22,826 nt of DNA from a virus. Position numbers and translations under genes: made by a program. Below are positions 15,474 through 22,826 of the stretch, one piece after another. The notes beneath the pieces were generated by a model, which did not search any database, was not told the origin of the DNA, and saw nothing but the letters and a program-made list of their open reading frames with translations. The DNA is taken from IMG/VR virus record IMGVR_UViG_3300021182_000069, positions 1 through 22,826 of that record. One strand, written 5' to 3'. The stretch's first letter is position 1; every line of letters begins with the position of its first letter.

Positions 15474-15501
15474 TCGCAGAAAATACACGGTCTATAATGA
15501 G
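15474..15501 (+). promoter_or_regulatory. Promoter-like element P2
   Basis: TCGCAG, then AAAATACAC, GGTC and TATAATGAG, with -10 at 15493-15498. No coding sequence follows; the downstream unit is the structured RNA at 15499-15605. Confidence 0.75.
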
Positions 15502-15605
15502 AAGGAGCCTACATACGAAAAAGATGGCTTAATACAGCGTTAATGATAGCACCGTGTAATGACGCGCAAAACATAAATCGATCGCGATATTCCTTCTCAT
15601 TTTTT
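15499..15605 (+). ncRNA. Candidate structured RNA A with closing terminator stem
   Basis: GAGAAGGA (15499-15506), directly after the P2 -10 box, is perfectly complementary to TCCTTCTC (15591-15598), which is followed by ATTTTTT. Between them are smaller hairpins: CGTGT-AATG-ACGCG (15553-15566) and ATCG-ATCG-CGAT (15577-15588). No reading frame longer than a few codons has a ribosome-binding site. The arrangement (promoter, short RNA closed by its own terminator) recurs at 16149, 16279, 20612 and 20827. Function unknown. Only two internal hairpins are clear here, with no tandem repeats as in the later RNAs. Confidence 0.6.
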
Positions 15606-16684: not shown

Positions 16685-17458
16685 ATGTCCATAAGTTCGA
16701 TAGCCAAGCATGCCGAGAAACTCATCGCCGATAACTCTCCAGCGATTCTAACTATTGTTGCGGTCACAGGAACTCTGACAACTGCGTTCCTGACAGGTAA
16801 GGCGACATTCAAGGCCGCCGAGGTTATCGAACACGAGAAAGAACGACTGGCCATCTACAAGAATTCACGTCATATCGAGTTTAAGGATGAGTTTAAACTT
16901 GTGTGGAAACTTTATATTCCGTCGGCGGGTAGTTGTCTGATGACCATCGTGTGTGTAGTTGGGGCGAATCGCATCGGGTCACGTCGTGCTGCTGCCGTAG
17001 CGGCTGCGTTTTCTATATCTGAGAAGGCTATCGCCGAGTACAAAGACAAAGTAATTGAGCGAGTTGGTGATGTGAAAGAACAAAAGATACGCGATGAAAT
17101 TGCCCAAGATCATGTAGATCGAGATCCCGTAGGTGGGCGTGAGGTGATCATAACGGGGAATGGTGAGGTTCTCTGTTATGACCAGTTCTCCGGTCGTTAC
17201 TTCAAAAGTGCTTATGAGACTTTGAAGAAGGCTCAAAACGACATCAACTACAAACTCATCAGCGATGACTACGCATCTCTAAGCGATTTCTACGACAAGA
17301 TAGGACTCGCGCCGACCGCATATTCTGAAGAGGTTGGATGGAGAGTCGAGACTAAGTTGGAGTTGGAGTTCTCGGCATGCTTGTCCGAAGATCAGCGTCC
17401 CTGCATCTCGATAGGATTTCACATAGCCCCAGTGAGGGACTACTACCGAGTTAACTAA
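16685..17458 (+). CDS. DUF6353-like membrane protein, copy 1
   Basis: 257 residues, site CAAGGAGCAT before ATG. Two membrane segments: about 18-38 (SPAILTIVAVTGTLTTAFLT) and 74-95 (WKLYIPSAGSCLMTIVCVVG), separated by a charged stretch with HEKERL. The 'NSPAIL' motif, the GKATFKA helix and the later AIAEYKDKV and FKSAYETLKKAQ segments match a family of phage membrane proteins (DUF6353) with a C-terminal soluble domain. A paralogue starts at 22267. No promoter motif lies immediately upstream; it may be co-transcribed from P6. Role unknown. Confidence 0.75.
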   Translation: MSISSIAKHAEKLIADNSPAILTIVAVTGTLTTAFLTGKATFKAAEVIEHEKERLAIYKNSRHIEFKDEFKLVWKLYIPSAGSCLMTIVCVVGANRIGSRRAAAVAAAFSISEKAIAEYKDKVIERVGDVKEQKIRDEIAQDHVDRDPVGGREVIITGNGEVLCYDQFSGRYFKSAYETLKKAQNDINYKLISDDYASLSDFYDKIGLAPTAYSEEVGWRVETKLELEFSACLSEDQRPCISIGFHIAPVRDYYRVN

Positions 17459-17473
17459 AAAATAGAAGAGATA

Positions 17474-17872
17474 ATGAATCAACACGTTGAGAAGATTAAG
17501 AAACACTTGCAGGAGAACAAGACGGTTTATATTGCTGGGGCAGGATGTTTGGTTGTCGCAGGAATTACATTCCTTATAATGAGATCCAGTTCAGGATCAA
17601 CTATCCTCCGTGATTCGATCGTGGAGGCCCAGCGTGATTCGATCGTGCTGGGGAAGAACGCGACCCTGAACCAGGTCTCATATTTTGCATCAGAACGTCA
17701 AGGTCCTCCATCCTGGGTTGTTCGTTGTATCGAGACTGGAAACGTCTTTACATCGCAACGATCAGCGGCTTTTGCAATGGAGATTTCTGAGAGCAATATC
17801 TCACGGCAACTTAACGGTCTTAAGGATCAAGCCGACGGTTATCATTTTGAACGCCTATGCATGGCGGCGTAG
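17474..17872 (+). CDS. Membrane-anchored NUMOD1/HTH-like protein, paralogue 1
   Basis: 132 residues, AGAAGAG site before ATG. Basic helix MNQHVEKIKKHLQENK, membrane segment at 18-36, a linker with a duplicated RDSIV, and a C-terminal domain at 85-127 (CIETGNVFTSQRSAAFAM, then SESNISRQLNGLKDQADGYH). That domain follows the NUMOD1/IENR1 pattern ('G..F.S...AA...I..S.IS..LNG....GYHF'), a helix-turn-helix usually attached to homing endonucleases; no nuclease domain is present. The paralogue at 20202 has the same layout. Bases 17556-17583 contain an intact copy of the repeated promoter, coding for part of the membrane segment. Function: possibly DNA binding at the membrane (inference). Confidence 0.72.
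   Translation: MNQHVEKIKKHLQENKTVYIAGAGCLVVAGITFLIMRSSSGSTILRDSIVEAQRDSIVLGKNATLNQVSYFASERQGPPSWVVRCIETGNVFTSQRSAAFAMEISESNISRQLNGLKDQADGYHFERLCMAA
17556..17583 (+). promoter_or_regulatory. Promoter-like element P8 inside a coding sequence
   Basis: TCGCAGGAATTACAT, TCCT and TATAATGAG-type end (-10 TATAAT at 17575-17580), entirely within the gene at 17474-17872. It would start an RNA covering only the 3' two-thirds of that gene, including the HTH-like domain. Confidence 0.6.
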
Positions 17873-19432: not shown

Positions 19433-20005
19433 ATGATCAAAGAGACAATTACGTACAAAACGCCTGACGGAGATAAACTGACCGAGGACTTCTACTTCAA
19501 CTTTGACAAGGTTGAGATCATCGATCTGCAGGTCCAGGACAAACGCGGTCTTCAAGCAGTTCTGGAGGCTATTCAAGCAGCAAAGGATACGAAGGCCGCC
19601 TTTGACTTTATCAAGGACACAATTCTCCTGGCTTACTGCGAAAGGGCTCCCGACGGTAAGGGCGTCAAGAAAACTCAGGAACTTCGTGACTCGTTTCGAG
19701 GAAAAGAAGCATTCGTCAATCTCGTGTTCGAGTTTCTGGAAGACCCAACGGCTGGCGCAAAGTTCTTCGACAGTCTTGTTCCTGAATGGATGAAGAAAGA
19801 ATTTGAGGAAACCGCGAAAAAGGTTGAAGGTATGGATCTGACTATGCCGTCGATCTCGGGAACAGACGCGCCAGTTCGTCCTCCAACAAGGGATCATCAG
19901 CAAAAGAAAGTTGTCGAGAAGGTGGTTGAACTTCCTAGAGAGAAGACTGCCTCTGAACTTGAGGCTGAGATTGCTGCACTGAAGGCTCAACTCGAACGAA
20001 AGTAG
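19433..20005 (+). CDS. Probable second tail assembly chaperone-like protein
   Basis: 190 residues, GAAAGGGG site. The first 125 residues follow a siphophage tail assembly chaperone family: ETITYKTPDGDKLTEDFYFN, then FDKVEIIDLQV, VLEAIQAAKDTKAAFDFIKD, ILLAYCERAPDGKGVKKTQE, LRDSFRGKEAFVNLVFEFL and AKFFDSLVP. The C-terminus differs: a Pro-rich linker and a coiled coil (ASELEAEIAALKAQLERK). The gene is about 12 kb from the tape measure, among small membrane protein genes, and the window already has a chaperone at 1851. It may be a relocated or repurposed chaperone, or the family may have a wider function. The call rests on sequence pattern only. Confidence 0.5.
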   Translation: MIKETITYKTPDGDKLTEDFYFNFDKVEIIDLQVQDKRGLQAVLEAIQAAKDTKAAFDFIKDTILLAYCERAPDGKGVKKTQELRDSFRGKEAFVNLVFEFLEDPTAGAKFFDSLVPEWMKKEFEETAKKVEGMDLTMPSISGTDAPVRPPTRDHQQKKVVEKVVELPREKTASELEAEIAALKAQLERK

Positions 20006-20128
20006 TAAGATTCTGTGAAGGTGGGAACCAGCACAGGGTCCTTTCGTAGGGGTTCAGCCCTATTCCGGATGCTAGGTTTATAAACGACAGCCGAGGGCAT
20101 CTCATCCATGCCGAAACATGTGCCCGTC
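20006..20128 (+). other. Intergenic stretch with several possible hairpins
   Basis: 123 bp without a credible gene. Possible stems: CTGTG/CACAG (about 20012-20036), TAGGG-GTTCAG-CCCTA (20047-20062), the palindrome GTTTATAAAC, and GGCAT-CTCATCC-ATGCC (about 20096-20112). It lacks the repeated promoter at its start and a U-tract at its end. It could be a 3' untranslated structure of the upstream operon. A tRNA was considered and not supported. Confidence 0.3.
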
Positions 20129-20156
20129 TCGCAGAAAAAACATCGCCTATAATGAG
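20129..20156 (+). promoter_or_regulatory. Promoter-like element P10
   Basis: TCGCAGAAAAAACAT, CGCC and TATAATGAG, -10 at 20148-20153. It drives the gene at 20202. Confidence 0.78.
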
Positions 20157-20201
20157 ACCCCCACGGGTTTTATATTTCGAATTCCTATGAAAGAAAAGTC
20201 G

Positions 20202-20597
20202 ATGAATACTAAAGTTGAGAAAATCAAGAACCACTTCAAAGAGAACAAGAAACTCTACATTGGACTAGGAATTGGCGCTGTTGTTGGTGTCGCCGGTACT
20301 ATTATCTTCAAGAAAAACGACGGAAATCAAGCGATCGTGGATTCATTCAAACTTGTCAATTGGAAATCTCCGCATACGTCTCAATTGATACAAGTCGCAA
20401 TTCCTCGACGAGGGAACTCTGGAAATGCGATTCAGTGTGATCAAACCGGGACTATATTTCCGAGTCAGAACCTCGCGGCGAAAGAAATGGACTTAAATGC
20501 TGGAAATCTTTCGCAGCAACTGAATGGAAAAATTCCGTCTGTAAATGGCTTTACTTTTACAAAACTTACCGAAAGCGGTGATCCCATCGCAGAATAA
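20202..20597 (+). CDS. Membrane-anchored NUMOD1/HTH-like protein, paralogue 2
   Basis: 131 residues from the ATG at 20202. This start aligns with its paralogue at 17474 (MNTKVEKIKNHFKENK against MNQHVEKIKKHLQENK). An in-frame ATG at 20187 would add five residues; a start at 20118 precedes promoter P10. Membrane segment at 19-36 (YIGLGIGAVVGVAGTIIF), variable linker, then a C-terminal domain at 79-121 (CDQTGTIFPSQNLAAKEM, DLNAGNLSQQLNGK, NGFTFTKL) of the NUMOD1/IENR1 helix-turn-helix pattern. The last codons overlap promoter P11. No nuclease motif. Confidence 0.72.
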   Translation: MNTKVEKIKNHFKENKKLYIGLGIGAVVGVAGTIIFKKNDGNQAIVDSFKLVNWKSPHTSQLIQVAIPRRGNSGNAIQCDQTGTIFPSQNLAAKEMDLNAGNLSQQLNGKIPSVNGFTFTKLTESGDPIAE

Positions 20598-20614
20598 ACA
20601 TAGCCTATAATGAG
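20587..20614 (+). promoter_or_regulatory. Promoter-like element P11
   Basis: TCGCAGAATAAACAT, AGCC and TATAATGAG, -10 at 20606-20611. Its first bases are the last codons of the gene at 20202. It leads into structured RNA D. Confidence 0.78.
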
Positions 20615-20718
20615 AATCCTCTGGGTCAGTCATTGCGACAGGCTTGATTGGCGTCAGTCATTGCGACGGACCCCATCTTACCCATCATTGTGATGAGTAA
20701 TCAGAGGGTTCTCATTTT
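20612..20718 (+). ncRNA. Three-hairpin structured RNA D (AUUGY loops)
   Basis: The closing stem GAGAATCCTCTG (20612-20623) with CAGAGGGTTCTC (20702-20713) has 12 pairs, one G-U, and is followed by ATTTT. Inside are three tandem hairpins, 27-28 nt apart, with cores GTCATTGCGAC (20629-20639 and 20657-20667) and ATCATTGTGAT (20684-20694). The third core differs from the others by changes on both sides of the stem (G-C to A-U), so pairing is kept. Each core is flanked by a short outer stem with different sequence in each unit. P11 gives the promoter. No reading frame is apparent. A four-way junction fold is predicted; function unknown. Confidence 0.78.
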
Positions 20719-20721
20719 AGG

Positions 20722-20815
20722 ATTAGTGTTTGGATCCGCCGATAAGGCAGATCTGCAGGCCCGCCGATAAGGTAGACTTGCTTGGCCCGCCGATAAGGTA
20801 GACCAACAAACTACA
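20722..20815 (+). ncRNA. Three-hairpin structured RNA E (GAUAA loops)
   Basis: Three tandem hairpins, 25-26 nt apart: GATC, C x A, GCC-GATAA-GGC, GATC (20733-20753); GCAGGCC, C x A, GCC-GATAA-GGT, GACTTGC (20755-20781); TTGGCC, C x A, GCC-GATAA-GGT, GACCAA (20782-20806). Outer stems differ but stay paired. A weak closing stem GTTTG/CAAAC (20728-20732 with 20807-20811) may join them. There is no separate promoter or U-tract: the 3' side runs into P12. It may be transcribed by read-through from P11, or be part of a longer nine-hairpin RNA. Confidence 0.68.
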
Positions 20816-20829
20816 TGTCCTATAATGAG
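20802..20829 (+). promoter_or_regulatory. Promoter-like element P12
   Basis: CCAACAAACTACAT, GTCC and TATAATGAG, -10 at 20821-20826. The upstream half (TCGCAG in other copies) is replaced by the end of RNA E, while TACAT and CC-TATAATGAG are kept. It leads into structured RNA F. Confidence 0.68.
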
Positions 20830-20940
20830 AACCCAGTATCTGGATCACCGTTATGCGGAGATCTGAATGGTCACCGTTATGCGGAGACCGTCTTGGCCAC
20901 CGTTATGCGGAGACCAACAGATACTGGGTTCTCATTTTTC
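20827..20940 (+). ncRNA. Three-hairpin structured RNA F (UUAUG loops)
   Basis: The closing stem GAGAACCCAGTATCTG (20827-20842) pairs perfectly over 16 bp with 20918-20933, followed by ATTTTTC. Three tandem hairpins at 26-nt spacing: GATC, A x A, CCG-TTATG-CGG, GATC (20843-20863); GGTC ... GACC (20869-20889); TTGGCC ... GACCAA (20893-20917). The core is identical in all three, the outer stems change and, apart from one C x A mismatch in the third, stay paired. P12 precedes it. The gene at 20979 follows with the leader box but no new promoter, so RNA F could also be a terminator leader for it. Not a family I recognise. Confidence 0.8.
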
Positions 20941-20954
20941 TGCCTCTAAATTTC

Positions 20955-20967
20955 GAAACCCTACGAA
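20955..20967 (+). promoter_or_regulatory. Conserved leader box GAAACCCTACGAA, copy 2
   Basis: Identical to the box at 18247-18259 and at the same distance (11 bp between box and ATG) from its gene. It lies 15 bp after the U-tract of RNA F. Confidence 0.5.
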
Positions 20968-21925: not shown

Positions 21926-22270
21926 ATGACGGAAGTTCTTCATGTTGACATCGGTCATGGGGTGCAGGTTATTAGAGAGACCTGCTATCCAAATAATACT
22001 CACAAGAGACGAGATATAGAGCAGGAAGACATCGTGCCGATTCCTATGGAGATAAAGGACTATTCGGATCACTACTATGTGAGAGTCAAATATGCAGTCT
22101 GGCCTGAAATCTATGGGGAGCAACTTCCTATCCCGTTCCCAACGTTGACATCTGCCTGGGATTTCGCTAAGCACAACCTCTCGACAACAACGCCAGTCAC
22201 TCGTGTGTATAGTCCAGACGGCGATCTGTGCTGGGTGTTTATCTACGATATCTATAAGGAGAAAAAATGA
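21926..22270 (+). CDS. Unknown protein (114 aa)
   Basis: ATG at 21926 after AGGAA. No membrane helix. Contains ETCYPNNTHKRRDIEQEDIV, a motif shared with the N-terminus of the upstream protein (YPNNTQKRR), then YVRVKYAVWPEIYGEQLPIP and a C-terminal RVYSPDGDLCWVFIYDIYKE. It may be a small alpha/beta protein acting with its neighbour. The stop overlaps the next start (ATGA). Confidence 0.65.
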   Translation: MTEVLHVDIGHGVQVIRETCYPNNTHKRRDIEQEDIVPIPMEIKDYSDHYYVRVKYAVWPEIYGEQLPIPFPTLTSAWDFAKHNLSTTTPVTRVYSPDGDLCWVFIYDIYKEKK

Positions 22271-22826
22271 ACCTCGTGAAGTATATTCCAAACTCGGTAA
22301 CACAGAAGATCGGTCGCTCGATCCTTCTCACCCAGAAGAACTCCCCTACGATTCTCTTCGGTGTCGGCATTATCGGTGTCGTCGCTACCGTGGTTCTCGC
22401 TTCTCGAGCAACTCTGAAACTCGAAGACACGGTCGACGAGACTTCGAAGAACCTCGATGAAGCCAAGCGAAAGCATTACTCGGAGCATGAGCAGTATTCA
22501 ACTCAGGCTTACCAGAAGGATGTCACGATTCAGTATCTTCGTGGTGTTGGCTCTATCACGAAGTTGTATGGTCCGGCGTTTGTGGTAGGCGTGGTGTCAA
22601 TCGGATGTCTCACCGGTTCGCACCATATTCTAACGACCAGGAATACGAGTCTGATGGCGGCATATTCTGTTCTGCAGAAGGGATTCGACGAGTATCGTGC
22701 TCGTGTCAAAGGAGAACTCGGTCCAGACAAGGATCGTGAGTTCCGATATGGTACCGAGACCCACGAGATCCTTGAAGAGACAAAAAAGGGTGAACCGATA
22801 GTCAAGCAGGTCAAGCGAGTCGGTCC
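22267..22826 (+). CDS. DUF6353-like membrane protein, copy 2 (partial)
   Basis: The start overlaps the upstream stop (ATGA, AAGGAG site) and the frame is open to the window end (186 codons). Membrane segments at about 26-46 (SPTILFGVGIIGVVATVVLA) and 102-118 (GPAFVVGVVSIGCLTGS), separated by a helical, charged region (LEDTVDETSKNLDEAKRKHY). The 'NSP-x-I/IL' entry into the first helix, the alpha-helical hairpin and the later AYSVLQKGFDEYRARVK match the copy at 16685. The C-terminus is cut off. Confidence 0.78.
   Translation, partial: MNLVKYIPNSVTQKIGRSILLTQKNSPTILFGVGIIGVVATVVLASRATLKLEDTVDETSKNLDEAKRKHYSEHEQYSTQAYQKDVTIQYLRGVGSITKLYGPAFVVGVVSIGCLTGSHHILTTRNTSLMAAYSVLQKGFDEYRARVKGELGPDKDREFRYGTETHEILEETKKGEPIVKQVKRVG

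Follow-up and report, generated by a model that had tools for sequence, protein, structure and literature searches.

The locus raised the question of what a virus might gain from three adjacent short RNAs, each built of tandem hairpins. The window, that is, the whole 22,826-base stretch of viral DNA that was analysed, carried siphovirus tail genes and, after them, small genes that in many cases encode short membrane-type proteins, and two phrog_2152 proteins of unknown function (16685-17458 and 22267-22826) flanked the region. The closest relatives of the 20.1-21.0 kb region, weakly similar, were Gordonia phages of the subfamily Deejayvirinae, and Arthrobacter phage Qui and Rhodococcus phage ReqiPepy6 were related at the protein level. 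The upstream gene (19433-20005) led to no relatives in viral contigs. The data pointed to an undescribed RNA-protein module of soil actinobacterial viruses, in which RNAs of two to four hairpins usually stand beside a membrane-protein gene, possibly with a role in conflicts inside the infected cell. The following features were recorded at the locus:

20202-20597, plus strand: gene of a 131-aa protein of phrog_27818, the proposed partner
20588-20614, plus strand: RNA1 promoter of the CGCA-N7-CA-N4-CTATAATGAG type
20612-20718, plus strand: RNA1, three hairpins with AUUGC (20632), AUUGC (20660) and AUUGU (20687) loops; fold z -4.79
20612-20623 with 20702-20713, plus strand: RNA1 closing stem GAGAATCCTCTG/CAGAGGGTTCTC, followed by a U-tract at 20715-20718
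20729-20810, plus strand: RNA2, three GAUAA hairpins (20741, 20766, 20792); fold z -2.53
20820-20829, plus strand: -10 region of the RNA3 promoter, CTATAATGAG, the GAG of which doubles as the start of the closing stem
20827-20939, plus strand: RNA3, three hairpins CCGU-UAU-GCGG with loops at 20851, 20877 and 20903; fold z -8.01
20827-20842 with 20918-20933, plus strand: RNA3 closing stem GAGAACCCAGTATCTG/CAGATACTGGGTTCTC, followed by a U-tract at 20935-20939

The nine hairpins in three groups that had been reported in the preliminary description were present at this place. A strict descriptor (5-nt loop, 3-bp inner stem, non-Watson-Crick 1x1 position and outer stem) selected eight of the nine, with loop starts at 20632, 20660, 20741, 20766, 20792, 20851, 20877 and 20903. 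The uniform 3-bp inner stem claimed earlier thus held for eight hairpins, and the ninth (AUUGU, 20687-20691) had a longer one. Full descriptor triples occurred twice in the window and never in 60 dinucleotide shuffles.

The promoter element CTATAATGAG was found 12 times in the window with at most one mismatch, compared to 1.3 expected, and the promoter layout of RNA1 was also seen 5' of homologous RNAs. A conserved promoter together with a closing stem and a U-tract had been ascribed to two groups, and these were RNA1 and RNA3 only. In both of them the GAGAA after the -10 element paired with the TTCTC before the U-tract, hence the closing stem would be the terminator as well. RNA2 lacked its own terminator, nor was a promoter found for it; it matched the covariance model with an E-value of 5.5e-15, being itself among the ten model sequences. 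RNA3, also a model sequence, matched at 1e-13 and had blastn homologues in Gordonia phages; a direct blastn search of RNA1 against phages gave none. A further RNA at 15492-15605 of the window shared the promoter type and had a closing stem with a U-tract (TGAGAAGGAGCC...CCTTCTCATTTTTT), and it contained no tandem hairpins. Several actinophage-like contigs shared RNAs that start at a promoter, are closed by a stem and carry a tRNA-like T-arm, GUGUAGGUUCGAAUCCUACC in L024 (L008 1460; L013 8629, minus strand; L009 2157; L024 1254, minus strand; L116 1179; L121 5105).

The structure was assessed on ten homologous RNAs with triple hairpins, of which the window supplied two, phages seven and an IMG/VR contig one. 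Pairing was found in 98.4% of the cells and fell to 42-48% when the partners were slid by one base, two-sided (compensatory) changes occurred in 14 of 25 pairs, and the covariation score was 0.599 against 0.196 in shuffles (none of 500 reached it) and at most 0.093 with slid partners; these figures overstate independence, since the ten RNAs were relatives and their alignment had also supplied the structure. Inner-stem pairs had changed, for instance, from CG to UA and to GC, and outer-stem pairs from AU to GC, and such changes are difficult to explain otherwise. The homologues confirmed that the outer stems vary and yet stay paired, as had been noted from the window. The consensus pairs included 24 G.U cells and one C.A cell, fitting a transcript of the plus strand, on which the structure had been chosen. 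Hairpins 2 and 3 were flanked by a conserved C.A mismatch, once replaced by U-A. The proposal of a multivalent structured non-coding RNA was well backed by the covariation and by the promoter and terminator anatomy.

It had also been stated that such a form belonged to no named RNA family. In agreement, the window gave no Rfam match at gathering thresholds, and a search with Rfam 15 at E <= 10 over positions 19980-20960 of the window returned chance-level matches only. The same result bears on the suggestion that a type III antitoxin of the host, or a CRISPR repeat, is imitated by the RNAs. Such mimicry would agree with a tandem-repeat RNA followed by a terminator and has a precedent in phage PhiTE, where pseudo-ToxI repeats suppress ToxIN (PMC3475682). 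However, the lack of an Rfam match, the variable hairpin cores and the linkage to a phage gene spoke against it. Neither the RNA nor the protein family was found in 401 sampled Mycobacteriaceae genomes, a set without a positive control, and the zero matches of the triple-hairpin model there leave room for host loci of other sequence. The mimic was considered very improbable.

The strongest clue, and the main finding, lay outside the coordinates first described: the RNAs were linked to a protein gene. The 131-aa product of the gene just upstream matched phrog_27818 over residues 5-124 (E 1.1e-16). It comprised a Lys-rich helix at the N terminus, a predicted membrane helix spanning about residues 19-37, and a putative NUMOD/I-HmuI-like domain at the C terminus. 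The hydrophobic helix in the N-terminal half was read from the sequence as a putative membrane segment, and its orientation was ambiguous, since positive charges were located on both sides. In the AlphaFold2 model the C-terminal domain was predicted with pLDDT of 81-97 and the N-terminal half with low confidence. The Pfam I-HmuI_NUMOD-like match was weak (E 5e-4, 20 bits, below the cut-off of 27). The predicted domain resembled the DNA-binding part of I-HmuI (1u3e; Z 8.0, rmsd 5.0, 63 residues), sCTP-23166 (8b6e; Z 6.5 over 51 residues) and the DNA-binding part of I-TevI (Z 5.2). The protein matched no PADLOC defence family, and with its I-HmuI-like domain it was not an endoribonuclease of the ToxN/AbiQ fold. 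One paralogous member was encoded in the same window, and no tandem-repeat RNA adjoined it:

17474-17872, plus strand: paralogous member, phrog_27818 with E 2e-10; profile match E 3.3e-43

At 20020-20124 of the window, 5' of the 20202 gene, a further structured RNA was observed that is conserved and about 110-150 nt long. It occupied an equivalent position in Gordonia phages and ReqiPepy6, contained the invariant blocks GTAGGGGT and TAAACNACA, and had no match in Rfam. Secretariat carried an RNA of this type, yet had no match to the family of ~130-aa proteins.

The fold of the C-terminal domain raised the possibility that the repeats act as DNA, namely as tandem inverted repeats bound by a membrane-anchored helix-turn-helix protein for regulation of the locus or tethering of phage DNA to the membrane, with the RNA fold as a by-product. 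I-HmuI and I-TevI bind DNA through this fold, and the cores are short tandem inverted repeats spaced by 25-27 nt. On the other hand, the promoter, the long closing stem and the U-tract suited a transcript, the outer stems differed between the units with two-sided changes keeping them paired, and the RNA3-type core (CCKTTATRMGG) was confined to the RNAs in the five records searched. Given the covarying outer stems and a core found nowhere else in those records, the DNA-site explanation was regarded as less likely, and it was given a low probability.

In the phages with triple-hairpin RNAs that were examined first, the RNA adjoined the gene of a ~130-aa protein. A tandem repeat of 11 nt or longer lay no farther than 350 nt from 22 of the 33 family members and from 61 of 660 positions drawn at random in these loci, numbers that serve as a description and carry no p-value, since the members are related and the random places can include the RNAs themselves. 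The remaining 11 of the 33 members had no adjoining repeat by this criterion. Promoter-type patterns, rather than the protein, were used to fetch 146 loci, and scanning these revealed a promoter with tandem hairpins at four places, all of them within 230 nt of a member gene. Over 30 records, every confident match of the covariance model was at a member gene or the remnant of one, and most of its strong matches were its own training sequences. The RNA was mostly located 3' of the gene and was upstream of it in L064, L104 and L251; hence, the linkage was independent of a single gene order. Such linkage to a gene for a membrane/NUMOD-like protein makes a phage-encoded partner likelier than a host one.

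Some members of this protein family were accompanied by a second RNA type, in which a single hairpin varied (UUUA or CUAUG) and the frame around it, GARUCRC...GAGGYCAU...GCACUG...UUGG, was constant (L257 3398-3508; L256 3409-3526; L240 12558-12670; L237 11898-11998; L045 2800-2900).

Some RNAs were kept without a matching protein. In L051 the protein gene ended after 17 codons and ran directly into an RNA promoter, and two tandem-hairpin RNAs were retained after this remnant (covariance-model match 2e-8). The RNA beside Artorias gp44 was also present in Conley and Perkunas, which had no gp44-type protein and encoded one full-length family member each, of another type. At the window locus, three RNA types accompanied one protein gene. 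An excess of RNA over protein would be expected of an antidote or immunity RNA; a sponge directed at the host would fit it too.

The loops were described earlier as 5-nt loops, which stood as a simplification; the sequences are better read as triloops in RNA1 and RNA3 and as a GNRA-like pentaloop in RNA2. The UUAUG of RNA3 would be a UAU triloop on a fourth Y-R pair formed by loop positions 1 and 5. This fourth pair was U.G in the window and Artorias, U-A in Avazak, and C-G in hairpin 1 of Petito and in L051. The GAUAA of RNA2 fits a G-N-Y-R-A set together with GCUAA, GUUAA and GACGA, which may adopt a GNRA fold with base 3 looped out. The AUUGC and AUUGU of RNA1, as well as AUCGU, fit a putative three-base loop (UUG in RNA1) closed by A.C or A-U. 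Two ideas on the loops were discarded. A four-bp loop-loop pairing between RNA2 (AUAA) and RNA3 (UUAU) is easily given by chance with 5-nt loops, and mimicry of tRNA anticodons (GAU-AA, GUU-AA) lacked an equivalent of U33, involved a 5-nt loop and did not fit the other cores.

The loops were RNA-specific, as proposed, inside this phage, but recurred in other phages. AUUGC cores were found in Gordonia phages Conley, Pherobrine, Artorias and Perkunas, in Arthrobacter phage Qui (in the RNA after gp172) and in contig L052, and GAUAA cores occurred on different stems in L034 and Pherobrine. The same core types recurring across host genera made sponges or decoys for host factors, either proteins or RNAs, the most serious rival explanation, with the protein gene being an accessory-region neighbour or an RNA placer. 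The few cores (AUUGC, G-N-Y-R-A and the UAU triloop) shared by Gordonia, Rhodococcus and Arthrobacter phages, the several core types in one phage and the persistence of the L051 RNAs without the protein were all consistent with it. However, host sponges would not predict the linkage of 22 of 33 members of one protein family, nor a core that changes with the binding domain of the protein, and a host-directed role was given about one chance in four, less than a phage-encoded partner.

The joint change of the core and the domain was observed in one pair of closely related phages. The N-part of Avazak gp56 was 100% identical to that of Artorias gp55, whereas the NUMOD-like domain was 76% identical. 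In their RNAs (CCG-UUAUA-CGG in Avazak against CCU-UUAUG-AGG in Artorias) all three cores were changed, and the outer stems and flanks were nearly constant. Perkunas, which shared the core with Artorias, had a more distant N-part (93%) and a binding domain closer to that of Artorias (88%). A second contrast was suggestive of joint change: Tanis and Odesza (N-part 92%, binding domain 61%) differed in the loop, whereas Tanis and Pepy6/Pherobrine57 (N-part 61-67%, binding domain 70-80%) shared it. Among the same-core pairs the identity of the binding domain was higher (permutation p 0.016), whereas that of the N-part was not (p 0.62); a direct permutation test of the binding-domain minus N-part identity did not reach significance (p 0.17 over 21 dependent pairs). 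A single recombination tract may have altered both domain and RNA, as the RNA adjoins the part of the gene that encodes the domain. That only the cores were changed inside the RNA argued for function. Against the proposed pairing, similar recognition helices were accompanied by different first RNAs (LNAGNLSQQL with AUUGC in the window, LNAGNLCSHL with GUUAA in L045), and AUUGC cores accompanied dissimilar recognition helices.

A stretch of ~33 nt, GTCCATCTTGTCGGGACGAATCTATATTTCAA, located just 5' of the NUMOD-coding part (L005 5850-5885 and equivalents in L007, L238, L239 and L240), was identical or nearly so even at synonymous sites. It is a possible recombination anchor for domain swapping.

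Based on these observations, we proposed a module of RNA and protein encoded by the phage, in which the three RNAs form one half and the membrane protein is the cognate partner, and estimated the probability of this reading at about 0.5. Each RNA would be transcribed as a short molecule, in most cases from a separate promoter, and would present one hairpin in two to four copies, closed by its own terminator stem. Its partner would be the small neighbouring protein, held in the membrane by an N-terminal helix, and the protein's NUMOD/I-HmuI-like helix-turn-helix domain would recognise the hairpin core. Direct binding of the RNA by the protein was inferred as slightly the better bet. Several identical sites may allow one RNA to hold several protein molecules. 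As the favoured direction, the RNA might then restrain the protein in an antidote-like manner, and extra RNAs with other cores might act against the protein versions of other phages. Restraint rather than clustering or localisation was speculative and rather doubtful.

It was also considered that the RNAs are scaffolds clustering the membrane protein into an active assembly, with no inhibition involved. Two to four sites per RNA and a membrane-anchored partner would suit a scaffold, which, however, leaves unexplained both the RNAs without a matching protein and the surplus of RNAs over proteins at the window locus; it was thought improbable. A more specific form of the proposed module would be self/non-self recognition between co-infecting phages, where each phage encodes a membrane-bound nucleic-acid-binding effector and a neutralising multivalent RNA, the two change together as exchangeable alleles, and the extra RNAs confer immunity against effectors of competing phages. 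This form was regarded as unlikely, though somewhat less so than the scaffold.

If the pairing is true, it would represent a new RNA-protein partnership in phages, in which a membrane-anchored helix-turn-helix protein is matched to a structured, multivalent RNA by a recognition code that can be exchanged. A protein family of unknown function would acquire a role and RNA family databases a new structured-RNA class, and orthogonal pairs of RNA hairpins and proteins comparable to MS2 or boxB would become available. RNA-based competition between phages would then be directly testable in laboratory Gordonia and Arthrobacter.

No similar module was present in Rfam, PADLOC or the literature searched (NUMOD with membrane and RNA-binding; tandem-repeat phage RNA with superinfection). 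A close likeness was found in type III toxin-antitoxin systems (ToxIN, CptIN, TenpIN) and the pseudo-ToxI of PhiTE, in which a short tandem-repeat non-coding RNA also adjoins a protein gene and some phages carry the RNA alone. The module resembles these systems in layout without being a member of them, as its protein is not a ToxN-type ribonuclease. Their partner is an endoribonuclease and their repeats are processed pseudoknots, whereas here the partner is a predicted membrane protein with a NUMOD-like domain and the repeats are hairpins, simple by covariation. In addition, a separate promoter is usual for the RNA here, its position is either 3' or 5' of the gene, and one closing stem encloses all repeats. 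Binding between protein and RNA is known there and proposed here.

The phage-encoded AbiF/RCd22 of Clostridioides difficile likewise combines a protein with an associated RNA containing two copies of a conserved motif, and its toxicity, binding and neutralisation have been demonstrated (PMC12373285), whereas binding and restraint are proposed here. The AbiF protein belongs to the Abi_2/AbiF family, which has Cas13 links and another fold. Together with PhiTE pseudo-ToxI, this system shows that proteins can be neutralised by RNAs which phages encode and which contain repeated motifs.

In the GACAA pentaloop of P22 boxB, base 3 is looped out of a GNRA fold (PMC12550061), and the GAUAA, GCUAA, GUUAA and GACGA sequences fit such a P22-type GN(Y)RA pentaloop. 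Unlike lambdoid boxB, the hairpins here occurred in short terminated RNAs of 2-4 repeats, with no nut-site context and no arginine-rich N-like peptide. Finally, the predicted fold of the C-terminal domain was similar to the NUMOD/I-HmuI and I-TevI DNA-binding domains of homing endonucleases, whereas the protein here had no nuclease domain, carried a putative membrane segment and was linked to structured RNAs.
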